45,853 nt of DNA from Helicobacteraceae bacterium (GTDB lineage: Bacteria > Campylobacterota > Campylobacteria > Campylobacterales > Sulfurimonadaceae), in NCBI GenBank assembly GCA_026988515.1, contig JALSLA010000059.1, forward strand, positions 1 through 45,853, in the 5' to 3' direction. Shown in pieces: positions 3,093-36,211 of the stretch. The first letter of the stretch is position 1, and every line of letters begins with the position of its first letter. The translations under genes were made by a program, and so were the position numbers. The notes beneath the pieces are model-generated. The model was not told where the DNA came from and ran no database searches. It worked only from the letters and a program-made list of their open reading frames with translations.

Positions 3093-4601
3093 ATGCAAAA
3101 AGTAATTAACGACTCCGTCATTAGTGCCGCCTTTCAGTTTTTAAAAATAGGGGCACGTTTTTTTATTGGTATTTTTTTAGTTAAACAGCTTGAAGTTCAT
3201 GAGTACGGTGCCTACAATCTTTTTATGATGTTTATCTCTTTCGGCGGTATTATTCTCGCATTAAACACACATGAATATTTTAACATTGAGATATCATCCT
3301 CGAAAAGTATAAAGCAAAAACATCGCTACTTCTGGACAATTATGGAGTTACTTTTGGTATTGTCCCTCTGTTTTTTCCTTGTTATGCAGAGTGATTTTGT
3401 TTCGAGACATCTTATGTCCTGGCTCAATATTGAACCCTACAAAGAAGCATATATTTATGTATTGTTGGTTGTTATTATTACGACTGTTTCGATGACTATA
3501 GCGCGTTATTTGGCATACTCAAAGTATGTGCTTTTTTTTCAGTCATGGACCTTTTTTTTACAGTCCATGTGGATTGTTCCGTTTTTCTTTATGCAGTTAA
3601 GTTTGGAGCATATTTTTTTGAGTCAACTTGTCTCAGCGGCTGTTTTGATTGTCATTGGTATATATTATATCTATCGCAAAGAGCATGAAGAGTTTTTGTT
3701 TCAAACCAAGAAGATTGTTCCAGATAAACATTTTGCCAAGTCGGCAATTTATTTTGGGTTTGGAACCTATTTTGCACTTATCGGTTCCTTTCTTCTTGAA
3801 ATTACCGATAAGGTCATGTTGGCTCTTTTAAGCTCCAACGATAATGTGGCGTACTATTCGTTCTCTTCTATTACCTTTAGTATCTTAAACGGTTTTATCG
3901 TTGGTACGGTTTTTTTGATTGCCATGCCTTATATTAATGAATACAACAGTAGCGACAAAGAGAAGAAATTTACACTTTATGTGGAGCTAATCAAGGGATT
4001 TATTGTCTATTTGAGCGGGGTTCTGTTGATCGTATCGCTTTTAGCAGACAGTATTGTGCTTTTTATCGGAAAAGTTGAGTATTTACAAACAGCTGAAGTT
4101 TTTCCGATTGTATCTCTGATTTTTCTTACCACACTGATTATTGCACTGTTAAAGCATGAACTTATGTTAACGAAACAGCTTAAGAAATTAAGTATTATCT
4201 TCTTCTCGGCTCTGGTACTGAACGCACTGCTCAACCTCTTTTTAATTCCGCAGCATGAGTATTTAGGAGCGTTTATAAGCACATTGATAACACAACTGTA
4301 TATTATTGTCTGGCTATACGGCAGTACAGAAATCAGGCGATATGTTGTGTTTAAAATCACAAAAACAGCCCTACTGATTGGTTGTTTGGCATTAGTGTAT
4401 ATTGTATATGAAACACTACGTACGTTAATCGCCTCTGTTGTGACCAACAACACAGCACATTTGTTTGTGATGCTGTTTTTGTTGTATATAGTCTATTTGT
4501 TTTTGGTGTCTTTATGTGGTATTATACCAAAAAAACATTGGCAGGCCGTACAACAGATTGTACGAAAAAAAATTAATATAATAAAGGGTGCATCATCATG
4601 A
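3093..4601 (+). CDS. Wzx-like polysaccharide flippase
   Basis: A 502-residue protein that is hydrophobic almost throughout, with about 12-14 predicted membrane segments. It begins with the amphipathic N-terminal pattern common to MATE/MVF-type polysaccharide exporters (SVISAAFQFLKIGARFFIGIF, then a short loop VHEYGAYNLF). It also has YLGAFISTLITQ near the C-terminal third, a characteristic Wzx position. It should move a lipid-linked glycan from the inner to the outer face of the cytoplasmic membrane. It sits between a glycosyltransferase and a carbamoyltransferase and its stop overlaps the next start by 4 nt (ATGA), so translation is probably coupled. Codon use is A+T-rich like most flippases. 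The substrate is unknown; two other flippases lie in region 2. Confidence 0.82.
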   Translation: MQKVINDSVISAAFQFLKIGARFFIGIFLVKQLEVHEYGAYNLFMMFISFGGIILALNTHEYFNIEISSSKSIKQKHRYFWTIMELLLVLSLCFFLVMQSDFVSRHLMSWLNIEPYKEAYIYVLLVVIITTVSMTIARYLAYSKYVLFFQSWTFFLQSMWIVPFFFMQLSLEHIFLSQLVSAAVLIVIGIYYIYRKEHEEFLFQTKKIVPDKHFAKSAIYFGFGTYFALIGSFLLEITDKVMLALLSSNDNVAYYSFSSITFSILNGFIVGTVFLIAMPYINEYNSSDKEKKFTLYVELIKGFIVYLSGVLLIVSLLADSIVLFIGKVEYLQTAEVFPIVSLIFLTTLIIALLKHELMLTKQLKKLSIIFFSALVLNALLNLFLIPQHEYLGAFISTLITQLYIIVWLYGSTEIRRYVVFKITKTALLIGCLALVYIVYETLRTLIASVVTNNTAHLFVMLFLLYIVYLFLVSLCGIIPKKHWQAVQQIVRKKINIIKGASS

Positions 4602-6375
4602 CGGTAATAGGAATATTTGACGGGCACAATGCTTCTGCAGCACTGACAATTGACGGCGAAGTATTATGTGCTATTCAAGAAGAGCGTTTTACCAAACGAA
4701 AAAATGAAACCTGTTTTCCACAATATGCGGTAAGATATATTTTAGAAACGTATCAGCTTAATAATGACAACATCGATATGGTAGCAATGTCTACAACAGA
4801 TCGAACCGATATTAATAATATTCAATACCCAATTGATTCTGTTTTTAGTATTGCAGATTATATTGATATGATGGAGGAGTACTGGAAGCCCAAACTCTCC
4901 GGTAAACCTTATGTTAAAGCGTATGCTAAAAAAGTTTTTGAAGAAAAATATCCAAATGAGACAACGTTTCATAACATTCCTTTGGAGTTTTATGACCTGG
5001 ACAGACCAATACTGCAGCAAAAGATGCAAGAGTTGATTCGAAACGATGTCGCCGCTTTTATGCATATTGATGCCGAGAAAGTACGCTACTTTGATCATCA
5101 TACGTGTCATGTGATGTATGGCTATTTTGCCAATCCAAATAAAAAAGAGAAAACCATTGCCATAACGGTAGATGCTAATGGTGACGGGCGTAATCAGACT
5201 GTCTGGAAAATCGAAAACAATCAATTTACTTTGGTAGACGACAGTGCTCAATGTGACATTGGACGAATCTATCGAATGATTACACTTTATTTGAGAATGA
5301 AGCCCCTTGAGCATGAGTTTAAAGTCATGGGGCTAGCACCTTATGCCAAAAAGAGTTATATTAATGATGTTATGCATGTGTTCAAAGAGCTATTGACGTT
5401 TGACGGTTTGAAAATTATCTATAAAAATCGTCCGGAAAACCTGTATGAATATTTTAATGAAAAGTTAAAGTACTACCGGTTTGACAATATCGCCGGTGCT
5501 GTTCAAGAGTATACGGAACAGATGCTAAATGAGCTTTTTGTGCGTGCATATAAAGAGATTGGGTACCGTAACTTTGTATTTAGCGGCGGGGTGGCAATGA
5601 ATGTAAAGGCAAATAAAGCCCTTGGTGACTTGGATTGTGTTGATGATCTTTTTGTTGCCGGCTCTTCTTCAGATGAGTCTCAAAGTATCGGTGCTTGCTA
5701 TTTTGCCAATTATGAGAAAGGTATTGAGAATAAACCGCTAAAAAATCTCTATTTGGGCACTCAGATTGCTGATGACGAAGTGCAAGACTATATACAAAAA
5801 CATCAGCTTGACAAGCGATATAATATTTCTACAGCAGATCACGCCACGGTAGCCTCTTTGTTGGCAAAAGGAGAGGTAGTTGCTAGAGTCGCCGGTAGAA
5901 TGGAATTTGGGTCGCGGGCACTGGGGAATCGAAGCATTTTAGCCGATCCGTCTAATCCGGGGATTATTCAATATATAAATGAACTCATTAAAGGTAGAGA
6001 TTTTTGGATGCCGTTTGCTGCAACAGTGCTTGATAGCTATGCCAACCAATATTTAGTCAATCCCAAAGGGTTTACCTCAGCCTATATGGCCGTTGCTATG
6101 GAGACTCGCAAAGAGTCCCTGCATGACATTAAAGCAGGAACCCATCCCTACGATGAAACCATTCGACCTCAGATTTTAACGAAAGAGCAAAATCCGGAGT
6201 ATTATGATTTAATCCAAACTTTTTCAGAAATAACGGGGATTGGAGCACTGTTAAATACCAGTTACAACCTGCACGGCTTGCCGATGGTTAATGATATTGA
6301 AGATGCCATGCATGTTTTTGAGAACTCAGGCTTGAAATATCTTGTGTTGAACCATACTCTAGTGTCCCAAAGATA

Positions 6376-6376
<1 letters not shown>
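4598..6376 (+). CDS. NodU/CmcH-family O-carbamoyltransferase
   Basis: 592 residues, the usual size for the family. The N-terminal Kae1-like domain opens with GIFDGHNASAALTIDG and QEERFTKRKNE, and includes the FDHHTCHVMYGY metal-binding region near residue 165. The middle has VDANGDGR and FSGGVAMNVKANKAL, and the C-terminal domain has EFGSRALGNRSILADPSN and FWMPFAATVL, all family hallmarks. Such enzymes use carbamoyl phosphate and ATP to carbamoylate a sugar hydroxyl, as in Nod factor, tobramycin and some O-antigens. Here the acceptor is probably a sugar in the glycan made by region 1. The ribosome site is AAAGGG 8 nt before ATG 4598, and the stop overlaps the next start as TAATG. No key motif seems missing. 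Confidence 0.92.
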
Positions 6377-8665
<2,289 letters not shown>

Positions 8666-8666
8666 T

Positions 8667-9845
8667 ATGAATTTTATTCCTTACGGCAGGCAACATATTG
8701 ATCGTAACGATATTGACGCTGTTGTCGGTGTATTGAATACGGAGTATTTAACTACGGGACCAATGGTAACAGCCTTTGAGGAAGCGATTGAGGCATATTG
8801 TGGAGCCAGGTATGTTATTGCTGTTTCAAGCGGTACGGCTGCACTGCACCTTGCGTCGCTAGCCCTGCTTAAGAGTGGCGACAAGGTGCTAACGACACCG
8901 AACTCTTTTTTAGCAACGGCCAATGCTATTGTATATGCAGGGGCAACTCCTGTTTTTGTCGATATTGCATCCGATGGCAATATTGACTTGGATTTGTGCG
9001 AACAATATCTGCAAGAGCACGATGACATAAAAGCAATATATGGTGTGCATTTTTCAGGAAATCCGCTGCATCAGGCGAAGCTTCAATCATTACGCGAACG
9101 TTACGACATTGTTATTCTTGAAGACTGTGCCCACTCTATCGGTGCTAGTAATGGCGGTATTACTGCGGGAAGTTGCACTAATTCAGAGTGTTCTGTTTTC
9201 TCATTTCATCCGGTTAAGCATCTGACTACCGGTGAAGGTGGTGCGGTGACGACCAACTCTGAGGAACTGTACCAGAAACTGCTTCTTTTAAGAAATCATG
9301 GCATACAGCGTGATGGAGCATTGTGGGTTAACAGGACAATGGCATATGACAGAAAAGGTAATAGCAATCCGTGGTATTATGAGATGCAGGAGTTGGGGTT
9401 TAACTATCGTATTACAGATATTCAATGTGCATTGGGAGTGACTCAGTTGCAGAAACTGCCTCTGTTTTTGAAAAAACGACGGCATATAGCACAGGTATAT
9501 GACACGGCATTTAAAGAGACGCCGTTAATTGTACCGCTGTATGACTTTTGTGAAGATTCGGCATATCATTTGTATGTAGTAACCATTGCATTTTCAAAAC
9601 TAAGAATTACCAAAGCTGAACTGTTTTTAAAAATGCGAGAAAAAAACATTGGCTTGCAGTTGCATTATATCCCAATAAATAAACAGCCGTACTATACGCA
9701 ACGCGGTTACGGGAATGAAGATACACCGGTTATGGATGCGTATTATGCTACGGCATTGTCGCTACCGATATATTATGATTTAAGCCATCACGAACAGTCT
9801 TATGTCATTGAGACCTTACTGGCGATAGTCAATGAAAACAGCTAA
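8667..9845 (+). CDS. pseC: UDP-4-amino-4,6-dideoxy-N-acetyl-beta-L-altrosamine transaminase, PseC
   Basis: 392 residues in the DegT/DnrJ/EryC1 PLP-dependent aminotransferase family. Visible marks are IPYGRQHIDRNDIDAV and TTGPMVTAFEEA at the N-terminus, SSGTAALHLA for phosphate binding, EDCAHSIGA with the PLP-ring Asp, and the catalytic Lys in FSFHPVKHLTTGEGG. The C-terminal QLHYIPINKQPYY stretch is typical of PseC. It transfers an amino group from glutamate to C4 of the PseB product. Its position directly after pseB supports PseC rather than another sugar aminotransferase. It overlaps the next gene by 14 nt. Confidence 0.94.
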   Translation: MNFIPYGRQHIDRNDIDAVVGVLNTEYLTTGPMVTAFEEAIEAYCGARYVIAVSSGTAALHLASLALLKSGDKVLTTPNSFLATANAIVYAGATPVFVDIASDGNIDLDLCEQYLQEHDDIKAIYGVHFSGNPLHQAKLQSLRERYDIVILEDCAHSIGASNGGITAGSCTNSECSVFSFHPVKHLTTGEGGAVTTNSEELYQKLLLLRNHGIQRDGALWVNRTMAYDRKGNSNPWYYEMQELGFNYRITDIQCALGVTQLQKLPLFLKKRRHIAQVYDTAFKETPLIVPLYDFCEDSAYHLYVVTIAFSKLRITKAELFLKMREKNIGLQLHYIPINKQPYYTQRGYGNEDTPVMDAYYATALSLPIYYDLSHHEQSYVIETLLAIVNENS

Positions 9846-10575
9846 GTCGTCCCTCTATATTATTATTCAGGCGAGAATGGGTTCAACGCGACTGCCGGGA
9901 AAAGTCTTGTTGCCTTTGTGCGGCGACACGGTATTGGGTGTGATGCTTCAGAGACTTTCACGTTTTCGAGATAATATTATTATTGCAACGACTAACGACG
10001 GTAGCGAAGAGGCTATTGTGGCTTTGTGCCGTCAATCCGATATTCGCTGTTTTCAAGGGGATGTTGACAACGTCTTAAAGCGTTACTATGATGCTGCAGT
10101 GCATTTTGGTGCGCAAGAAGGCGATACTATTGTACGGTTGACCTCGGACTGTCCTTTTATTGATCAAGAGATTTTAATGCAGATGTTACAACAGTTTTAC
10201 AGCAGTACATATGACTACTACTCCAACATCTTTGAAAGAAGCTATCCCAGAGGGCTTGACACTGAGATATTTACATTTAAAACATTAGAGCGGGCATTTT
10301 GCAATGCGACGACACCGTTTGAAAAAGAGCATGTTACTACATACATACACACCACACACCACAAAATATTTAAAATAGGTTCTTTTACAGACTCTCATGA
10401 TAACTCAAAGTATCGATTAACGCTAGATGAAGCTGCCGATTATGAGGCGATCACTCTGCTTTATGAACAGCTGGGATGTCAAACGGACTTCTCTTATGCT
10501 GCATTGTTACAGGCATTGAGAGATCGCCCTGACATTTATGAGATAAACGCGTATGTAGAGCAGAAAAAAAGATGA
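9832..10575 (+). CDS. SpsF-type cytidylyltransferase-like protein, probable stand-in for PseF
   Basis: 247 residues. The N-terminal nucleotidyltransferase signature IIQARMGSTRLPGKVLLPL is followed by the SpsF-type features GDVDNVLKRYYDAA, RLTSDCPFID, and YPRGLDTEIF. This is the spore-coat SpsF branch of the CMP-sugar transferase superfamily, not the ordinary PseF/NeuA branch. It lies between pseC and pseG, where a CMP-pseudaminic acid synthetase would be expected, and no other CMP-sugar synthetase is seen in the window. I infer that it activates the nonulosonic acid with CTP; the Bacillus sps cluster has the same gene next to PseC-, PseI- and PseG-like genes. Direct activity on pseudaminic acid is not proven by sequence. 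It overlaps pseG by 4 nt. Confidence 0.8.
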   Translation: MKTAKSSLYIIIQARMGSTRLPGKVLLPLCGDTVLGVMLQRLSRFRDNIIIATTNDGSEEAIVALCRQSDIRCFQGDVDNVLKRYYDAAVHFGAQEGDTIVRLTSDCPFIDQEILMQMLQQFYSSTYDYYSNIFERSYPRGLDTEIFTFKTLERAFCNATTPFEKEHVTTYIHTTHHKIFKIGSFTDSHDNSKYRLTLDEAADYEAITLLYEQLGCQTDFSYAALLQALRDRPDIYEINAYVEQKKR

Positions 10576-11555
10576 AAAAAGTGTTGATCCGTTGCGACTC
10601 TTCCCATACCATCGGTTTGGGACATGTTATGAGGGATCTTGTATTGGCACAAGCGCTTCAGTCACGCTATGAGGTGATGTTTGCAACACGAGAGCTCAAA
10701 GGAAATATCAACAACAAGATTAAAGAGAACGGTTTTGTTTTACATGTTATTGCTTCGAACGATATTGAAGAGCTGATTCGTGTTATTGTCGACAATAACA
10801 TTGACATTGTCGTTATCGATCATTACGGTATTGATGCAAGTTTTGAACAAACGCTAAAACAACGTACCGGAGTCTATCTTGTTGTATTGGATGACTATTA
10901 TGAAAAGCATTACTGTGACAGGCTTATAAATCACAATCCCGGTGCTGATAGTGAAAAATATGACACACTGCTTCCGAGGCATGCCGTACGACAGTGCGGC
11001 ATTGCCTATACATTAATTCGCAATGAGTTTAAAGAGGCTCGAGACGGTATGACATCAAAGAGAAAACCGGGCAAAAAAAGAGTTAAGCATATTATGGTAA
11101 TGATGGGGGGAAGTGATCCAAAAAACTATACGCTCTCTATTGCAAAAAGCCTTTATCGTCACCAATACTATAAACTGCATTTGGTTACCACAAGCGCCAA
11201 TCATCACTGTGAGACTTTGAGGCGATTGGCACAATGCCATCGCAATATTTATTTACATGTAAATTCGTCACACATTGCACGGCTGATGAATCAGGCGGAT
11301 TTAGCTGTTATTTCACCAAGTGTTACGGCTGCCGAGGCACTTTTTATGAGACTCCCTTTTGTCGCCGTGCAAACTGCAGGCAACCAAGAAGCGATCTATA
11401 GCTACTTAAAACACAAACGCCTTCCTGTACTAAAACAGTTCCGAAGCGCAGCTCTTTTAAGAGCAGTTGAGGAGTGTTTGGCAAACTATGATACGATTAC
11501 AAAGAGATTACGGCAGTTTTATTTTTCTAAACAGACAGTGGAGTATATTATTTGA
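10572..11555 (+). CDS. pseG: UDP-2,4-diacetamido-2,4,6-trideoxy-beta-L-altropyranose hydrolase, PseG
   Basis: 327 residues with the GT-B-like PseG layout. The N-terminus has RCDSSHTIGLGHVMRDLVLA, which holds the GxGHxxR motif and the catalytic His. The middle has VIDHYGIDASFEQ and VVLDDYYEKHYCD. The C-terminal domain has MVMMGGSDPKNYT, a nucleotide-sugar site, and AVISPSVTAAEALFM. The enzyme removes UDP from the 2,4-diamido hexose to release the free sugar that PseI condenses. It overlaps the formyltransferase-like gene by 4 nt (TTGA). If that neighbour replaces PseH, this enzyme's natural substrate would carry an N-formyl group at C4. Confidence 0.92.
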   Translation: MKKVLIRCDSSHTIGLGHVMRDLVLAQALQSRYEVMFATRELKGNINNKIKENGFVLHVIASNDIEELIRVIVDNNIDIVVIDHYGIDASFEQTLKQRTGVYLVVLDDYYEKHYCDRLINHNPGADSEKYDTLLPRHAVRQCGIAYTLIRNEFKEARDGMTSKRKPGKKRVKHIMVMMGGSDPKNYTLSIAKSLYRHQYYKLHLVTTSANHHCETLRRLAQCHRNIYLHVNSSHIARLMNQADLAVISPSVTAAEALFMRLPFVAVQTAGNQEAIYSYLKHKRLPVLKQFRSAALLRAVEECLANYDTITKRLRQFYFSKQTVEYII

Positions 11556-12205
11556 AAGTTGCTATACTAACTACGGCTAACACATGGTTTGTTGCTTATG
11601 TGTCAAAGCTTGAAGAGAAGATTAGAGCATCGCACCATGAGGTCACACTTTTTTTTGATCATGAAACAATTGATTCAAGTTACGATACGGTGTTCATCTT
11701 AAGCTATCATCGAATCATTCCAAAAAAGTATTTGGAATCGCACAGACACAATCTTGTTGTACATGCGAGCGATCTTCCACATGGGAAAGGATGGGCTCCT
11801 TTTTTTTGGCAGGTTATTGAGGGTAAAACGACCATTCCATTCACACTGTTTGAAGCGGGTGAAGGGGTAGATGACGGTGATATTTATCTGCAAGAAGAGG
11901 TACACTTGAGCGGTTATGAGCTTTATGATGAGCTTCGCCATATTCAGGCGGAAGCAACCATTGCTATTTGTTTGAAATTTCTGCAACATTATAAGCTGCT
12001 AACTCCTAAAAAGCAGCAAGGCAAAGAGAGTTTTTACAAAAAAAGAACGCTCTGTGACAGCAGGCTGGATGTTGAACGTTCTATTAAAGAACAGTTTAAT
12101 CTTTTACGTACCGTTAGCAACGAGGAGTTTCCCGCCTTTTTTGAAATAGAGGGGCGACGCTATCTTCTTAAAATTGAGCACGATACCCGAGGAGCATTAT
12201 CGTGA
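11552..12205 (+). CDS. Formyltransferase-fold protein in the pseudaminic acid operon (candidate PseH replacement)
   Basis: 217 residues from TTG 11552, with GGAG about 9 nt upstream. The central part, VVHASDLPHGKGWAPFFWQV, matches the formyl-transfer domain of methionyl-tRNA and sugar formyltransferases: a catalytic His, the SxLP segment, and a Pro/Trp stretch. EGVDDGDIYLQEEV follows, which includes the conserved DxGDI-like Asp. The family uses N10-formyltetrahydrofolate to formylate an amine. The GNAT-type PseH that acetylates N4 of the PseC product is not in the window, and this gene lies inside the pathway between pseG and pseI. I infer N4-formylation of the UDP-amino sugar, giving 7-N-formyl pseudaminic acid, a form known from Pseudomonas aeruginosa pilin glycan. 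Its true acceptor is untested. It is too short for tRNA formyltransferase. Confidence 0.75.
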   Translation: MKVAILTTANTWFVAYVSKLEEKIRASHHEVTLFFDHETIDSSYDTVFILSYHRIIPKKYLESHRHNLVVHASDLPHGKGWAPFFWQVIEGKTTIPFTLFEAGEGVDDGDIYLQEEVHLSGYELYDELRHIQAEATIAICLKFLQHYKLLTPKKQQGKESFYKKRTLCDSRLDVERSIKEQFNLLRTVSNEEFPAFFEIEGRRYLLKIEHDTRGALS

Positions 12206-13242
12206 CCATTGCAAATTTTGATTTTAATAGTGACAAAACCTTTATTATTGCCGAGCTCTCTGCTAACCATAACGGGAGTCTGGATACGGCTATAGAGAGC
12301 ATTCGAGCTATTGCCAAAACGGGTGCTGATGCAGTCAAACTGCAAACCTACACAGCCGATACACTAACCCTTAATTGTGATAACCGCTATTTTACAATAG
12401 ATGGCGGCACCTTGTGGGACGGTAAGACCCTCTATGAACTTTACCAGGAGGCATACACACCGTGGGAATGGCACGAAGAGCTGTTTAGTATTGCCGAAGA
12501 AGTAGGACTTATATGCTTCTCCTCCCCGTTTGATTCAACGGCTGTTGACTTTTTGGAGCAGTTTGACCCTCCGGCATATAAGATTGCTTCATTTGAGATT
12601 ACCGATATTCCGTTAATTGAGTACACCGCCTCTAAAGGAAAGCCGGTGATTATCTCCACCGGTATTGCGACACTTGAAAATATAGAAGAGGCTCTTGAGG
12701 CTTGTCGGCGTCAAGGCAATAACAACATTATTTTGCTAAAGTGTACGTCTGCCTATCCGGCGCCTCTGGAAGAGGCCAATTTAAAAACCATTGCCGATAT
12801 GGTAACAAAATTTCAAACCGTCGTAGGGTTTTCAGACCACACCTTAGATATGGTAGCTCCTGTGGCAGCTGTTGCACTGGGGGCTCGCGTTATTGAAAAA
12901 CATTTTATCTTAGATCGAAATATTGGTGGTCCTGATGCTGCGTTTAGTTTAGATGTCAATGCGTTTTCACAAATGGTTCAAGCAGTGAGAGATACTGAAA
13001 AACTTTTGGGATCGGTTGATTATACCATTAGCGAAAAAATCGAGCAATCACGGCAGTTTGCACGAAGCCTGTTTGTAGCGCAGGATATTAAAAAAGGTGA
13101 ACGAATTACTACAACTAATGTCCGTTCCGTACGACCGGGGTATGGAGCCCATCCAAAATATCTGCAAGATATGCTTGGGAAAAGAGCGAAAAAAAATTTG
13201 CATTTTGGGATGCCGTTGAATCTTGGTGATGTTGTGTTTTAG
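12202..13242 (+). CDS. pseI: Pseudaminic acid synthase, PseI
   Basis: 346 residues from GTG 12202, with GAGGAG upstream and a 4-nt overlap with the previous gene. The NeuB-type TIM barrel is plain: FIIAELSANHNGSLDTAI, GADAVKLQTYTADT, FSSPFDSTAVDFLE, YKIASFEITDIPLI, STGIATLENIEEA, KCTSAYPAP, GFSDHTLD and VIEKHFILDR. A C-terminal SAF (antifreeze-like) domain follows (RSLFVAQDIKKGERITTTNV). The enzyme condenses the 2,4-diamido-trideoxy sugar with phosphoenolpyruvate to give the nonulosonic acid. The NHNG and DRNIGGPDAAFS details fit PseI better than sialic or legionaminic acid synthase. It is the last clear pathway gene in region 1. Confidence 0.95.
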   Translation: MTIANFDFNSDKTFIIAELSANHNGSLDTAIESIRAIAKTGADAVKLQTYTADTLTLNCDNRYFTIDGGTLWDGKTLYELYQEAYTPWEWHEELFSIAEEVGLICFSSPFDSTAVDFLEQFDPPAYKIASFEITDIPLIEYTASKGKPVIISTGIATLENIEEALEACRRQGNNNIILLKCTSAYPAPLEEANLKTIADMVTKFQTVVGFSDHTLDMVAPVAAVALGARVIEKHFILDRNIGGPDAAFSLDVNAFSQMVQAVRDTEKLLGSVDYTISEKIEQSRQFARSLFVAQDIKKGERITTTNVRSVRPGYGAHPKYLQDMLGKRAKKNLHFGMPLNLGDVVF

Positions 13243-16981: not shown

Positions 16982-17824
16982 TTAGTATCCAAAAACTTTC
17001 GCACTGTCTTGAAGTTGATTCTCAATAATTTTTGTCATGTTCGCATCAAAATATTTTTTCCACCCATCTATTTTTCCGGAACGTAAAGTAGGGGATGATG
17101 AGTTTTCCATTTTAGAAATTATACTATTTATTTCATTGTTGCTCATATTAATTTCTAAAAAATCTACTATTTTTTTAAGTGTTTCAAATTGTTTATTGCA
17201 ATTTCCTCCTCCTCTTTCTCCAACAAGGTCTTCAAACTTTATGATTAAACAGTTATCTAAAGTTGTCCATCCTGAAAAAAGCTTAAATATCTCATCAATA
17301 GGAGTTAGAATGTCTTTTTGATCTTTGTTTTGGGATTTTTTACCGACTATGCATGCCTTTAGTCTTTCTCTGTCATTAGATAAAGACTTTATATATTGAT
17401 GTGTTCTATGTGTTACATCTATATCTAATACATATTTAAAGTTTGATACAACTACTGCTCTTGGGTCACGGACAATTAACAATACTTTTATATCGCTAGA
17501 CCTTAAAGCGGACAATAGTTTTTCGTGCGCAGGAATATGAGCAATGTAATACTGTCCTTTTTTTATAGATAAAATTTTGTTTACAGTTTTATCTGGAATA
17601 TCTTTCCATTCAATTATGGTCCGAGTCCCAGAAGGTCTTAGAGGGGGAAGTTTTTGCAAATAACCATCAAGTAAATTAGTGCCAGCTTTTGGAATGCTGT
17701 TGAGTAATACTTTAGGTCCAGATTTCCTACCTTCAATCTTTTCCGGCAGTAATGCCATTTTTTTTGCCTTTATATAACGTTTTGCAAAAATTTCAAGCCT
17801 TTTTAATTTATTTTGTTTACGCAT
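16982..17824 (-). CDS. Sulfotransferase, Sulfotransfer_1 family
   Basis: 280 residues. The 5'-phosphosulfate-binding loop is seen in LLNSIPKAGTNLLDGYL, the 3'-phosphate site in VLLIVRDPRAVVVSNFKY, and the C-terminal GKIDGWKKYFD matches the conserved PAPS-contact loop of cytosolic-type sulfotransferases. Such enzymes move sulfate from PAPS to a hydroxyl or amine. With cysD/N/C and cysQ heading the same operon, the likely acceptor is a sugar in the repeat unit. It lacks a signal peptide, so sulfation would take place in the cytoplasm before export. It overlaps the polymerase gene by 8 nt. Confidence 0.88.
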   Translation of the reverse strand: MRKQNKLKRLEIFAKRYIKAKKMALLPEKIEGRKSGPKVLLNSIPKAGTNLLDGYLQKLPPLRPSGTRTIIEWKDIPDKTVNKILSIKKGQYYIAHIPAHEKLLSALRSSDIKVLLIVRDPRAVVVSNFKYVLDIDVTHRTHQYIKSLSNDRERLKACIVGKKSQNKDQKDILTPIDEIFKLFSGWTTLDNCLIIKFEDLVGERGGGNCNKQFETLKKIVDFLEINMSNNEINSIISKMENSSSPTLRSGKIDGWKKYFDANMTKIIENQLQDSAKVFGY

Positions 17825-20080: not shown

Positions 20081-20658
20081 ATAAAAGTTCCTTCATCATT
20101 AACTTTTTGCCATATACTTTTTTTGGTATTGTAGCGTTTAATTATTTTTGCCGGATTTCCAACAGCAACGGAAAAGTCTGGAATATCATGGGTTACTACG
20201 GCATTGGCACCAATAATGCACTGTTTCCCAATTGAAGAACCAAGTACAGAGACGTTTTCACCTAGCCATGATCCTTCGCCTATTGTAATGGGTTTAGTTG
20301 CAGAAACTCCTTGTTCTCTAATAGGTATTGTAATGCTTGAAAAGTTGTGAGTGCTGTCACTAATAAACACTTTATCGGCTATAAGTACCGACTCTTCAAT
20401 GACTATTTTTTTAATAGACACAATATGGAAAAAGTGCCCAATTTCGCAATTTGACTTAATAATTAGTTGTGAATTGTCTCCGGCGTATAGCCATGCCATA
20501 TCGCGAATAACAATTTTACTGCCCAATGAAATATTTTTAATACCGTCAATTCGTAAGACTCGGTAGATTCTGTTGTCACCCCCACAGCTTCTAAAAAAAT
20601 TTTTATAAAAGGAAAAATTGACAATACTAAGGAAGTTAATGAATTTTCTAGTCAGCAT
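20077..20658 (-). CDS. Left-handed beta-helix O-acyltransferase (hexapeptide repeat family)
   Basis: 193 residues. Hexapeptide-type turns run through the middle (SNCEIGHFFHIVSIKKIVIE, then VLIADKVFISDSTHNF). The C-terminal part GEGSWLGENVSVLG and IGANAVVTHDIPDFSVAVG are the hallmarks of the WbbJ/Maa acetyltransferase group, with the His in DSTHNF as a candidate catalytic residue. It should transfer an acetyl or other acyl group from acyl-CoA to a sugar hydroxyl in the cytoplasm. In this operon it would be a third kind of decoration next to sulfate and pyruvate. It overlaps both neighbours (11 and 4 nt). Confidence 0.88.
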   Translation of the reverse strand: MLTRKFINFLSIVNFSFYKNFFRSCGGDNRIYRVLRIDGIKNISLGSKIVIRDMAWLYAGDNSQLIIKSNCEIGHFFHIVSIKKIVIEESVLIADKVFISDSTHNFSSITIPIREQGVSATKPITIGEGSWLGENVSVLGSSIGKQCIIGANAVVTHDIPDFSVAVGNPAKIIKRYNTKKSIWQKVNDEGTFI

Positions 20659-21550
20659 GAGTGTACCAATGTGATAGATCTCTATCTATAAGTTTTTCTA
20701 ATTTTTTTATATCATCGATAAAAAAAGGAAGTAAAAACTGTGCTTCTTCTTGTGGAATTTTTTCTTTATTTTTTTGAAAAAAGAGGTTTTTAAGTGCATT
20801 TCTATATTTTTCAGGTACAAAGTTTAATTGAATACCAAAGCGATTTCTTATATAGTTGATGTATTGTAGTGGTTTGTTTTTTGGTACTACGGTTTCATTA
20901 TGTCTTTTAGTATAGTCAACAGCAGTAATGTTGTCTATGTTTAAAAAAGCATAAATGTCTCCCATAAATTGTTCAGGACTTTTTATTAGGTCATCATACA
21001 AACATACATGTACATTCGAAAAAGACTCTATATATGCTTTGACTTGATTGTAGTACAAGCCCATATCTTTGTAAAACCAAAATGAGTTATATTTTTTTTC
21101 TTTTTTTTCATCTTCTTTGTTGAGCGCCTCTTCAAAGCTTAAAAATTCAATATTTGACTGATACTTATAGTTTGAAAATGCTCTTTTGACAGGATCTCGT
21201 AATACAATAATAATAGGAACGTCTCCTAGTTTTTCTTTAATTTTTGGTATGACGGTATTATGATGGTATAAATATTGTATGCTTGCATCTCCAAACATGG
21301 TAGCTCTTGAATCAGCTTGTTTATAAAGATCTACATATGCATTCCAGTCTAGAACAGAACTTTCCATAAGGTAATTAAACATAGGGTCTTCTTTGCTAAC
21401 TTCTTCAAAAACATCATGTAAAAAATATCTTGGTTCTTTTAGTTCCGGTATAAATACTTCAGGGTGACTAGTTAAATATTTAGCGACAGAAGAGGTGCCT
21501 GCTTTGGCGGTACCCACTATGAGAAAGTTTGGTAACTTTGTAATTTTCAA
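20648..21550 (-). CDS. Sulfotransferase, heparan-sulfate-type
   Basis: 300 residues. The 5'-PSB loop is NFLIVGTAKAGTSSVAKYL near residues 8-26, followed by LTSHPEVFIPELKEPRYF, the usual continuation in bacterial and Golgi-type sulfotransferases. The 3'-phosphate site is VPIIIVLRDPVKRAFSNYKY. EEALNKEDEKK and LCLYDDLIKSP-like segments also match the family. It should sulfate a sugar using PAPS. It belongs to a different branch from the sulfotransferase at 16982-17824, so two positions may be sulfated. There is no signal peptide. It overlaps the flippase gene upstream by 4 nt. Confidence 0.92.
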   Translation of the reverse strand: MKITKLPNFLIVGTAKAGTSSVAKYLTSHPEVFIPELKEPRYFLHDVFEEVSKEDPMFNYLMESSVLDWNAYVDLYKQADSRATMFGDASIQYLYHHNTVIPKIKEKLGDVPIIIVLRDPVKRAFSNYKYQSNIEFLSFEEALNKEDEKKEKKYNSFWFYKDMGLYYNQVKAYIESFSNVHVCLYDDLIKSPEQFMGDIYAFLNIDNITAVDYTKRHNETVVPKNKPLQYINYIRNRFGIQLNFVPEKYRNALKNLFFQKNKEKIPQEEAQFLLPFFIDDIKKLEKLIDRDLSHWYTHAD

Positions 21551-31816: not shown

Positions 31817-32578
31817 CTATTTTCCTTTAACAACAAACCATGGATTGAGCAGATTTTCCTTATTATAAATCATGGGCTCATTGCTTTCAAACTGGTAGGT
31901 CATCTTGCCGGCTTCACGGACAACAGCATCGGCGGCACCGGTGTCCCACTCCATAGTGGGTGCAAGCCTTGGGTAGATATCGGCACTGCCTTCGGCCACC
32001 ATGCAAAGTTTCAGAGAACTTCCTTTGGAGACCTGTTCAATGTTGTCACTTTCAAGTGCATCAATAAAGGCTTGTGTCTCTTCGGAAAGATGTGATTTTG
32101 ATGCGACGACAAAGAGCTTTTTCTCTGGAGTTGCATTGGTTTTCAAGGGGAGCTTTTGGCCATTTTTGTAAGCTCCTTCATCTTTTTTAGCGCGATACAT
32201 ATCGCCCAGTGCCGGAGCATAGACAACCCCGAGTACGGGAGTGTTTTTGTGAATGAGTGCGATGTTGACGGTAAACTCCCCGTTTTTCTTAATGAACTCT
32301 TTGGTACCGTCAATGGGGTCGATCAGCCAGAAATACTCCCAGTTCTTGCGCTCACTGTACGGTGCGGCTTTGTTCTCTTCGGAGAGAATGGGGATGGTCG
32401 GGTAGAGTTGTGTTAAAGCGTTGCAAATAATTTCGTTTGACTTGGTATCGGCTTCGGTCAACGGTGATTTGTCGTCTTTATAGTCGACGGTAAAGTCTCG
32501 GCTGTAGATCTCCATAATGGCATCGCCGGCCTCTTTGGCAACAGCAACAATATCGTTGAGCAGAATGCTTTTAAGCAT
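31817..32578 (-). CDS. cysQ: 3'(2'),5'-bisphosphate nucleotidase, CysQ
   Basis: 253 residues from ATG 32578, giving an 8-nt overlap with cysC; a longer in-frame start at 32632 would overlap by 62 nt. The inositol-monophosphatase-family motifs are [26 protein letters not shown] (metal-binding DPIDGT) and [12 protein letters not shown]. CysQ removes the 3'-phosphate of PAP, the product left when a sulfotransferase uses PAPS, and so relieves inhibition of those enzymes. Its place beside cysC and in the same operon as two sulfotransferases fits this role closely. Confidence 0.93.
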
Positions 32579-33173
32579 GTATGTATCCTTTGGTAGTGAG
32601 ATAGTCAATGATGATGTCGGCGCATGCATCAATACTGAGCTCGCTGTTTTTTACATGTATTTCAGGGTGTTGCGGTGCTTCGTACGGAGAGGAGATACCT
32701 GTAAAATCGGGTATTTCACCGTTCCGCGCTTTTCTATAGAGTCCTTTGGGATCACGGCGCTCACACTCTTCAAGAGGGGTATCAATAAAAACTTCAATAA
32801 ATTCGCCCTCCTCCATCATGGCTCTAACGCGATCACGATCTTCTTGAAAGGGAGAGATAAAAGCCGAGAGGACAATGGTTCCGGCATCGACAAAAAGTTT
32901 GGCAACTTCACCGATACGACGAATGTTTTCTATGCGATCTTCGTGGGAAAATCCAAGCCGGGCATTGAGCCCGCGGCGGATATTGTCGCCGTCAAGCAGG
33001 TAGGTATGACGCCCGAGTGCATAGAGCTTGGCTTCAACGGCATTGGCTATGGTAGACTTTCCGCTACCGCTTAGCCCTGTAAACCAAAGTACGCAAGGGC
33101 GCTGTTGTTTAAGGTCAGATCGTGCCTCTTTGCTAATATCATGATTGTGCCATACAATGTTGTTATTTGACAT
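32571..33173 (-). CDS. cysC: Adenylyl-sulfate (APS) kinase, CysC
   Basis: 200 residues with the full APS kinase motif set: P-loop GLSGSGKS at residues 33-40, [41 protein letters not shown], and [12 protein letters not shown] followed by [10 protein letters not shown]. It phosphorylates APS to PAPS, the sulfate donor. No APS or PAPS reductase lies in the window, so PAPS made here is more likely for sulfation than for cysteine synthesis. It overlaps the DUF2061 fusion gene by 11 nt. Confidence 0.95.
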
Positions 33174-33888
33174 AGTGCTTCTTTATATATTTTACAATAG
33201 TGTTAGCCGCTTCTTCGGCACTCATTATCTCGGTATCAATGACAATTTCAGCATGCTGCGGCTCTTCGTAGACATCGTTGATACCGGAGAAATTCTGCAA
33301 TTCACCTTTAAGAGCCTTTTGGTAAACCCCTTTGTAATCTCGTTGTTTGCAGGTCTCAATATCGGCTTTAACATGGACAATAATATTGTTGGTTACCATA
33401 TCACGGATGGCCTTGCGTGATTCTCTATAAGGAGAGACGAAAGAGGCAACGGTTGAGATGGAGTTTTTTTGTAATTTTTGAATCAGAAAACCGACACGGT
33501 GCATATGACGGTTTCGGTCTTCTCGTGTGAAGCCGATATCGGGAATGAGGTCGCGGATATCTTTGGCATCAATACGTTCAAGCGGAATGTGCAGCTTTTC
33601 AAGCTCTTCATAAACCTTGTCGGCAATGGTTGTTTTTCCTGAAAGCGGCAGACCGGTAAACCATAGATTAAACGGCTCAATCTTCTTTTTGCCCCAGTGG
33701 ATTTTAAACCATGCGCGTTCATGCAGCCAGTAGAGGGCTACTTTTAAAACAGTTTCAATCATTCCGGCGGCAATGGCCAAGTCGAGCCTTCCAAAAAAGA
33801 CATAGACAATAACAATGGTTGTTGATGTGGCAACGATGCGCCAGCTAATCCCTTTAACAATGGAGCGCTGATTGGTCTCTTTATACAT
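33163..33888 (-). CDS. DUF2061 membrane domain fused to a diverged APS-kinase-like domain
   Basis: 241 residues. Residues about 5-62 match DUF2061: [17 protein letters not shown], a hydrophobic segment, then [21 protein letters not shown], giving two membrane segments. Residues about 70-235 are CysC-like, with P-loop GLPLSGKT at 79-86, [22 protein letters not shown] and [10 protein letters not shown]. The motif that reads LDGD in ordinary CysC reads IDAK here (106-109), and the NIRR segment reads HMHR, so activity on APS is uncertain. It may be a membrane-tethered APS kinase, a regulatory paralogue or a kinase for another substrate. It lies between cysN and cysC with 1- and 11-nt overlaps. 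Confidence 0.85.
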
Positions 33889-35300
33889 TAGACTGCTTTA
33901 CACTCCCATTCCGGAAAGTTGTCACGAATGTATTGATTAAGTGCTTTTTCGGCGTCACTGTAGTGTTTACCATTGCGTTTAATGACATCTTCGTCTCTGC
34001 GGCTGACTCCGACAATCATTCCTGCACCGACCGTGTTGTTGGTAATGCGATCAACAACAATAAAGCTGCCGGTTAAGCGGTTTTCTTTGTAAGCATCAGA
34101 AGCTATAGGGCGAGTAAGTACCATGCGGCAGGAGGCAATGTCATTGAGTTCGAGTGTTTCTACCTGCGTACGCTCATAGGTGTTGACATCAATTTTGTAG
34201 TTAATGTGTTCAATATGCCCCGATACCACAGATGTAGCTCTTTTAATGTCATACGTACGTCCGGTGTCCATAGGTTTCTCATCCATCCAGACCAGCATTA
34301 CTTTTAGGCTGTTGGAAACACGTGGTAGGCTATGCGTATGTACAATCATATCGCCACGGCTGATATCGACTTCGTCTTCGGTGGTGATTGTAACGGCCAT
34401 AGGAGCATATGCCTCTTGCGTAGTTGCTTCTCTGTCTGCCTCGCTAATATCTCCGGCATTAATAATGCTTTTTACTTTTGTGGTTTTTCCTGATGGCAGT
34501 ACGGTAATTTCATCGCCCACGGCAACGCTTCCGGCGGCAATAGTACCGCAAAATCCTCTGAAATTAAGGTGAGGTCGGTTGACGTACTGTACCGGAAAAC
34601 GGAAATTCTCCGCTTTTTGCTCTTTTGAAATATCCATAGTATCAAGCAGCTCTAAAAGGGGCTTGCCCTCAAACCATGGAGTATGAGTACTTTTGTCGAC
34701 GACATTATCACCGTTTAAAGCACTGACGGGGATGTAGTAGGTGTTTTTAATGCCTAACTCATCGGCAAGTGCACCGTAAGCCTGCGAGATATCATTGAAA
34801 ACACTTTCGCTAAAATCGACCAGATCCATTTTGTTGATGGCAATAACAACATGCTCAATGCCCAACAGTGAGACAATAAAACTGTGGCGCCGTGTCTGCG
34901 TCAAGATACCTTTGCGCGCGTCAATAAGAATGATGGCGACATCCGCGGTTGAAGCACCGGTGACCATATTGCGGGTATACTGCTCATGCCCCGGAGTATC
35001 GGCAATAATGAATTTACGTTTTTCTGTTGTAAAAAATCGATAGGCAACATCAATGGTAATACCCTGTTCGCGTTCACTCTGCAAGCCGTCGACCAAAAGT
35101 GCCATATCGATTTTTTCGCCGGTAGTGCCATATTTTTTACTTTCGCTTTCGGCTGCGGCGAGCTGGTCGTCAAAGATCATTTTGGAGTCGTACAGCATAC
35201 GACCGATAAGTGTGCTTTTACCGTCATCGACGCTACCACAGGTTAAGAAGCGTAGCATGTCTTTGTTTTCATGTTGCTTTAAGTAATCGATAATATCCAT
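33888..35300 (-). CDS. cysN: Sulfate adenylyltransferase subunit 1 (GTPase), CysN
   Basis: 470 residues. It is an EF-Tu-like GTPase with P-loop GSVDDGKSTLIGRMLYDSK, GITIDVAYRFF (switch I), IADTPGHEQYTRNMVTGAS (G3) and NKMDLVDFS (G4), then beta-barrel domains (FRFPVQYVNRPHLNFRGFCG). It couples GTP hydrolysis to APS formation by CysD. It is not fused to CysC, unlike NodQ-type CysNC proteins. It overlaps cysD and the fusion gene by 1 nt each. Confidence 0.96.
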   Translation of the reverse strand: MDIIDYLKQHENKDMLRFLTCGSVDDGKSTLIGRMLYDSKMIFDDQLAAAESESKKYGTTGEKIDMALLVDGLQSEREQGITIDVAYRFFTTEKRKFIIADTPGHEQYTRNMVTGASTADVAIILIDARKGILTQTRRHSFIVSLLGIEHVVIAINKMDLVDFSESVFNDISQAYGALADELGIKNTYYIPVSALNGDNVVDKSTHTPWFEGKPLLELLDTMDISKEQKAENFRFPVQYVNRPHLNFRGFCGTIAAGSVAVGDEITVLPSGKTTKVKSIINAGDISEADREATTQEAYAPMAVTITTEDEVDISRGDMIVHTHSLPRVSNSLKVMLVWMDEKPMDTGRTYDIKRATSVVSGHIEHINYKIDVNTYERTQVETLELNDIASCRMVLTRPIASDAYKENRLTGSFIVVDRITNNTVGAGMIVGVSRRDEDVIKRNGKHYSDAEKALNQYIRDNFPEWECKAV

Positions 35301-36211
35301 TAAAAGTACCCTTCAATTTTTTTCTGCTCCATTGCGCCTTCTTGATCTTTGTCAATCAGGCGTCCTTCACGTTCGCTGCTGGTAGAGAGCAGCATCTCTT
35401 TAATAATTTCAGGCAGTGTGGTTGCCGTAGAGTTTATGGCGCCGGTCAGCGGGTAGCAGCCGAGTGTTCGGAAGCGCACCATCTCTTTTTTGGCGGTTTT
35501 TCGTAAGGCTTCCGGCATACGATCGTCATCAACCATAATTTTGGTGCCTTCATACTCTACGACTTCCTGCTCTTTGGCAAAGTAGAGCGAAGGAATGGGG
35601 ATCTCCTCTAAGTAGATATATTGCCAAACATCGAGTTCGGTCCAGTTAGAGATAGGAAAAACACGAACACTTTCACCTTTTTCAATAGCAGTGTTGTAGA
35701 CATTCCACAGTTCAGGACGCTGGTTTTTCGGATCCCATCGGTGGTGTTTGTCGCGAAACGAGAAGATACGCTCTTTGGCGCGAGACTTCTCTTCGTCACG
35801 GCGTGCACCGCCGATAACGGCATCGTAGCCACCGGCGTTAAGCGCTTGTTTGAGCGCTTGGGTTTTCATAATATCGGTATGCACTTTGCTGCCGTGTTCA
35901 AACGGAGAGATATTCATCTCAAGCCCTTCGGGATTGGAGTGAACAATAAGATCAAAACCGAGATCTTTGGCACGTTGATCACGGAAGTCGATCATCTCTT
36001 TAAATTTCCATGTTGTGTCGACATGTAAAAGCGGAAAAGGAAGCTTGCTCGGAGCAAAAGCTTTCATGGCAAGATGCAGCATAACCGAGGAGTCTTTACC
36101 CACAGAGTACATCATGACCGGATTGCTAAATTCGGCAGCTACCTCCCGTAAAATATGAATGGACTCGGCCTCGAGTTGCTTAAGGTGTGTCAGCCGTTCT
36201 TGGTTCAACAT
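35300..36211 (-). CDS. cysD: Sulfate adenylyltransferase subunit 2, CysD
   Basis: 303 residues, the standard length. [20 protein letters not shown] is the PP-loop ATP pyrophosphatase motif. [50 protein letters not shown] and [13 protein letters not shown] are the diagnostic CysD blocks. It adenylates sulfate to APS with CysN. It is the first gene of the long leftward operon; AAAGGAATT precedes its ATG at 36211. Confidence 0.97.

Follow-up and report, generated by a model that had tools for sequence, protein, structure and literature searches.

The window analysed here is the whole 45,853-nucleotide (nt) stretch of contig JALSLA010000059.1 (C59; positions 1 to 45,853) from the draft genome of a Helicobacteraceae bacterium, assembly GCA_026988515.1, which GTDB places in the Sulfurimonadaceae. 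The draft genome comprises 1.99 Mb in 97 contigs and is 97.8% complete. Our subject is a six-gene pseudaminic acid (Pse) operon in which the slot of the acetyltransferase gene pseH holds a gene for a formyltransferase-fold protein, referred to as FT, and the slot of pseF holds an SpsF-type cytidylyltransferase gene. The features of the operon are as follows.

7673..8665, + strand: pseB, UDP-GlcNAc 4,6-dehydratase (inverting); TIGR03589, 531 bits (NCBIfam cut-off 408)
8667..9845, + strand: pseC; TIGR03588, 462 bits (NCBIfam cut-off 424)
9832..10575, + strand: SpsF-type cytidylyltransferase, in the PseF slot; CTP_transf_3, 103 bits; 6oew, E 1e-48
10572..11555, + strand: pseG, UDP-sugar hydrolase; TIGR03590, 249 bits (NCBIfam cut-off 154)
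11552..12205, + strand: FT, formyltransferase-fold protein of 217 amino acids, in the PseH slot; Formyl_trans_N, 41 bits (cut-off 26)
11750..11794, + strand: FT motif N-L-V-V-H-A-S-D-L-P-H-G-K-G-W (residues 67-81), Val69 replacing the catalytic Asn; read directly from the sequence
12202..13242, + strand: pseI, pseudaminic acid synthase; TIGR03586, 520 bits (NCBIfam cut-off 340)

All six genes are confirmed at these positions, with matches that exceed chance. The PseB, PseC, PseG and PseI equivalogs all score above their curated cut-offs, which assigns the operon to the pseudaminic acid pathway and bears out a preliminary description of this DNA, in which these four genes were called clear. That description also reported a 217-residue formyltransferase-fold gene and an SpsF-type gene interleaved with overlaps of 4 to 14 nt, and the coordinates agree: pseC and the SpsF-type gene overlap by 14 nt, and the SpsF-type gene and pseG, pseG and FT, and FT and pseI overlap by 4 nt each. 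The junction between pseB and pseC has zero overlap. FT starts with a TTG codon overlapping the pseG stop by 4 nt, at the same start residue as its relatives.

The lack of PseH and PseF, first noted for this run of genes, extends to the genome. The PseH profile (TIGR03585) had zero matches in the whole draft genome at E ≤ 0.01; as a positive control, the same search found matches in 13 of 14 control genomes. Scanning the genome for Acetyltransf_1 gave three matches in all, none within the window. For PseF (TIGR03584), the best match, to a KdsB-like gene of contig C27, scored 40.6 bits (cut-off 205.7). This gene and the SpsF-type gene are the only two CTP_transf_3 genes in the assembly, and the SpsF-type gene is its sole candidate for a nonulosonate cytidylyltransferase. 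The SpsF-type protein aligns over its length with the solved 'Cytidylyltransferase' 6oew, its best solved relative. Its slot is occupied by a TIGR03584 PseF in loci L055 and L058, so that the proposal of an SpsF-type gene in place of PseF holds. Its CTP_transf_3 domain and its position in place of pseF make the enzyme a candidate SpsF-type CMP-nonulosonate synthetase, which would act on this operon's pseudaminate substrate.

A further nonulosonate gene set lies on contig C85 of the same genome (G000; L072:25-3924). It encodes a LegB-like dehydratase, a LegC aminotransferase (560 bits), a NeuD-family acetyltransferase (184 bits) and NeuB (512 bits), and is interrupted by the contig end. The preliminary description had named a complete second pse set with pseH and pseF as the case against its proposal; the second set is a legionaminic-type route and not a pse set. 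Neither a separate LegF nor a cytidylyltransferase of its own was found for the C85 set in the assembly, so the SpsF-type enzyme might serve both the Pse and the legionaminic-type pathways.

We searched an alignment of the FT family (A2) against 397 genomes of the phylum; 44 had matches, and 41 were accepted as true members. FT occurs in only 1 of the 121 genomes of the window's own taxonomic family, and is therefore rare there and was probably acquired. G238 and G453, which belong to other families of the order and of which G453 is a single contig, both have exactly the order pseB-pseC-PseF-pseG-FT-pseI, and neither contains PseH at E ≤ 1e-10. By this order FT sits in the PseH slot and the SpsF-type gene of the window in the PseF slot. 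A formyltransferase gene in the Pse operon of a PseH-less genome, a PseJ-like situation, was found for the window and for L055 and L058. In G311, FT lies directly 3' of pseG and SpsF is present; in both G311 and G372, FT is accompanied only by a PseH-like GCN5-related N-acetyltransferase (GNAT), which scores 45 bits where the cut-off is 93. FT in the PseH slot and SpsF in the PseF slot are thus not peculiar to the window genome. In an alphaproteobacterial plasmid cluster (pseB-pseC-pseF, pseG), a distant FT (26%) follows a NeuB gene and PseH is not annotated. The phage records searched contained distant formyltransferases only. A quick tree does not unite the PseH-less FTs in a single clade: their four rows stand apart, and the window sequence sits on a long branch.

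We assign a probability of roughly 60% to the reading that the operon yields pseudaminic acid in N-formylated form, with CMP-Pse5Ac7Fo as the likeliest product. PseB and PseC would make UDP-4-amino-4,6-dideoxy-L-AltNAc, and FT, instead of PseH, would formylate its 4-amino group, with N10-formyl-tetrahydrofolate as the expected donor. PseG would then take off UDP, PseI would condense the sugar with phosphoenolpyruvate and the SpsF-type enzyme would attach CMP. The identities and order of the genes, the lack of PseH and PseF matches across the genome and the recurrence of FT in the PseH slot in other families of the order are observed; the activity of FT, its donor, its acceptor nitrogen and the use of this substrate by the SpsF-type enzyme are predicted. 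Several findings weigh against this reading. The Asn of the catalytic triad is replaced by Val or Ile, and once by Phe, in every FT family member read. PseJ is a weak and partial match to FT (E 5e-5, residues 15-155), behind 1zgh, ArnA, VioF and Fmt. A PseH-family GNAT is also present in 38 of the 41 FT-bearing genomes, above cut-off in 35, and the NeuD/LegH-type acetyltransferase of C85 could in principle act instead of FT.

The last two of these points, together with other GNATs in the genome, would fit acetylation of N4 by an enzyme from elsewhere, either the C85 acetyltransferase or an undetected GNAT, with FT making a further modification or being dispensable. We regard this as improbable, because enzymes of the NeuD/LegH type are part of the D-sugar legionaminic route and the C85 copy shares an operon with LegC and NeuB, because the few Acetyltransf_1 matches lie outside the window, and because G238 and G453 repeat the slot FT without PseH. 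Formylation of N4 by FT remains the preferred reading.

FT has a formyltransferase fold by three lines of evidence: a Formyl_trans_N match, limited to residues 42-120; an AlphaFold2 model with a predicted local distance difference test (pLDDT) score of 91; and a Foldseek search with this model, in which 1zgh was the best match, followed by ArnA and Fmt, with VioF also among the best fold matches. In place of the triad Asn-x-His...Asp, FT has Val69-Val70-His71 and Asp107. With Val69 at the position of the triad Asn, activity cannot be assumed, and transfer from N10-formyl-tetrahydrofolate stays a prediction; to this extent the CMP-Pse5Ac7Fo product put forward in the preliminary description is weakened. 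His71 and Asp107 are invariant across the family, the S-x-L-P and D-x-G-x-I loops are preserved too, and nearly all members read share the motif N-[hydrophobic]3-H-x-S-x-L-P. The first residue of this motif, the invariant Asn67, was considered as compensation, since the model places it on the same strand (66-71) as Val69 and His71, but the Mariluticola protein described below does not share the position. The genome encodes its Fmt, PurN and PurU elsewhere, and these retain N-x-H, so FT is ruled out as the methionyl-tRNA formyltransferase of this genome. Among the solved formyltransferases for which an alignment was read, all but 1zgh likewise retain N-x-H.

The missing catalytic Asn and the internal stops in some relatives (G272, G374) could mark FT as a decaying or neutral passenger of the operon. 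This is very improbable: the Asn loss is common to the relatives and conserved and so does not represent decay, the relatives are 51-58% identical to the window protein, an alignment of 17 sequences has 57 invariant columns, overlaps of 4 nt flank the gene on both sides, and the frame is open in nearly all genomes. A somewhat stronger, though still unlikely, alternative is that FT modifies the pseudaminate precursor, by acylation or in some other way, without ordinary transfer from N10-formyl-tetrahydrofolate, the Val for Asn replacement reflecting another donor, reaction or sugar position. The Asn is lost, with a hydrophobic residue in its stead, in three formyltransferase-fold groups that are all linked to nonulosonates, namely FT, a group referred to as FT2 and a protein from a Mariluticola plasmid Pse cluster; moreover, FT is fused to a PseH-like GNAT in many genomes, which would be odd for enzymes competing for one amine. 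We nevertheless favor N4 formylation over such other chemistry, given the retained His, Asp and loops, the ordinary fold model and the fact that N4 acylation is the one missing step in the PseH-less operons.

The FT2 group (Formyl_trans_C_2) was found here solely beside a PIG-L deacetylase, in Pse-type loci (L007:6109-7972, L013:6615-7989, L016:5236-6610, L019:5940-7822 and L064:4892-6691). FT2 is followed by the deacetylase in every locus seen, sometimes with a PseH fusion. The pair suggests that an N-acetyl group may be exchanged for N-formyl at the other nitrogen, the future N5.

The claim that a formyltransferase-fold gene takes the place of pseH is supported for the window, G238 and G453, and fails as a statement about the family. 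With PseH-family GNATs in most FT genomes, FT is ruled out as a plain PseH substitute throughout, and may act alongside PseH. In most other FT loci, those of Helicobacter and Campylobacter, FT adjoins pseH and in many cases carries another PseH-like domain (PseH2) as a fusion. Poly-G tracts of 8-13 G occur at the pseH/FT junction in most of the loci where FT lies beside PseH (at the 3' end of pseH in L026-L045, L061, L062 and others), and often also at the FT/PseH2 junction; at this second tract some loci have the two domains fused, whereas others have them as separate proteins. No such tracts were found at the junctions of PseH-less FT loci. Of the 22 tract-bearing loci scored, which are related and hence not independent, 17 share a frame, +1 relative to FT, that leads from the tract to a stop codon having, as scored, 1 or 4 nt in common with the start region of FT; for 3 of these 17, the closest ATG is another 12 nt upstream. 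The pseH gene is currently in this FT-coupling frame in 4 of the 17 loci, plus 2 more from the frame table, and elsewhere stops earlier. The conserved frame and the poly-G tracts apparently couple FT translation to pseH in a phase-variable way, and FT in Helicobacter and Campylobacter would be an alternative or an addition to PseH. A 2018 survey listed a phase-variable formyltransferase-domain gene with G(9-10) in Campylobacter fetus (PMC6321876).

These observations can be joined, tentatively and with less confidence than the formylated product itself, in a scheme in which FT is a second, non-PseJ, Asn-less lineage of nonulosonate formyltransferases. In Helicobacter and Campylobacter it would be a phase-variable add-on to PseH: the poly-G tract would determine whether pseH terminates on the start codon of FT, and slippage would switch FT translation and so the choice between an acetyl and a formyl form of pseudaminic acid. 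In the PseH-less operons, that of the window included, it would be fixed in the coupled position, replacing PseH. The preliminary description had missed Val69 at the catalytic Asn, the PseH-adjacent and PseH-fused relatives and the legionaminic-type set.

Other genes around the operon may point to further modification. A DUF4910 gene 5' of pseB overlaps it by 14 nt. DUF4910/DUF2172/HTH_47 proteins, one also matching Peptidase_M28, are encoded at 304-1647 and 6376-7686 of the window and at L018:3353-4696, and a relative lies after pseC in a Campylobacter locus; the DUF4910-type protein is possibly an amidohydrolase tied to Pse glycans. A carbamoyltransferase (Carbam_trans_N/C) just 5' of the pse operon (4598-6376) makes O-carbamoylation of the glycan possible. 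The same island carries two sulfotransferases and a sulfate activation set (16982-17824, 20648-21550 and 32571-36211), the latter with two adenosine 5'-phosphosulfate (APS) kinases, one of them DUF2061-fused, and CysN- and CysD-like genes. A sulfated surface glycan is likely. In unrelated bacteria, Pse clusters have WbqC-like genes and methyltransferases close to FT-type genes (L059:5560-6950, L078:6585-7265).

Flagella, pili and capsules can carry pseudaminic acid, the N-acyl groups of which vary by species. FT-type genes easily receive the label methionyl-tRNA formyltransferase. In a 2025 study of Campylobacter coli, a 'methionyl-tRNA formyltransferase' listed beside pseH, which may or may not be of FT type, was taken as a change in protein synthesis initiation (PMC12102941). 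If FT makes the 7-N-formyl form, the gene would be a sequence marker of formylated pseudaminate in many Campylobacterota. The lost Asn also poses the biochemical question of whether a formyltransferase fold can transfer formyl without it.

Among known systems, PseJ (PDB 6ci2, 6ci4, 6ci5 and 6edk, named 'formyltransferase PseJ') reportedly formylates the PseC product in vitro, for 7-formamido CMP-pseudaminate. It shares with FT the fold and the pathway logic proposed here. In the solved PseJ chains (192-217 amino acids), only the first ~142 profile positions are matched, and FT is probably not orthologous to PseJ. The best fold match, 1zgh (TM 0.77), a 'methionyl-tRNA formyltransferase' of Clostridium thermocellum, is a near full-length sequence match and also lacks the Asn (V-x-H-x-T-D-L-P-x-G-R-G), but is only ~19% identical to FT, and its motif is nearer to that of the FT2 proteins found in other Pse clusters. 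The sugar N-formyltransferases ArnA, VioF, WbkC and Rv3404c resemble FT in fold, in the triad His and Asp and in a C-terminal stretch; ArnA and VioF retain N-x-H in the alignments read, whereas FT has Val69 and a shorter N-terminal half. SpsF-type genes in place of a NeuA/PseF homologue are on record from Bacillus subtilis (PMC7439481) and from the Pse cluster of Vibrio B9-25K2, where the gene is fused to an aldo-keto reductase rather than standing alone between pseC and pseG (PMC7371886). Halorubrum sp. PV6 makes 5-N-formyl-legionaminic acid and has a candidate formyltransferase gene in its cluster; there the sugar is legionaminic, the formyl group is at N5 and the enzyme is a candidate (PMC6137143). 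Formylation of a pseudaminate precursor by PseJ and replacement of PseF/NeuA by SpsF thus have precedent. What appears to be new is the Asn-less non-PseJ lineage, its PseH-less operons and its probable phase-variable coupling to PseH in relatives.

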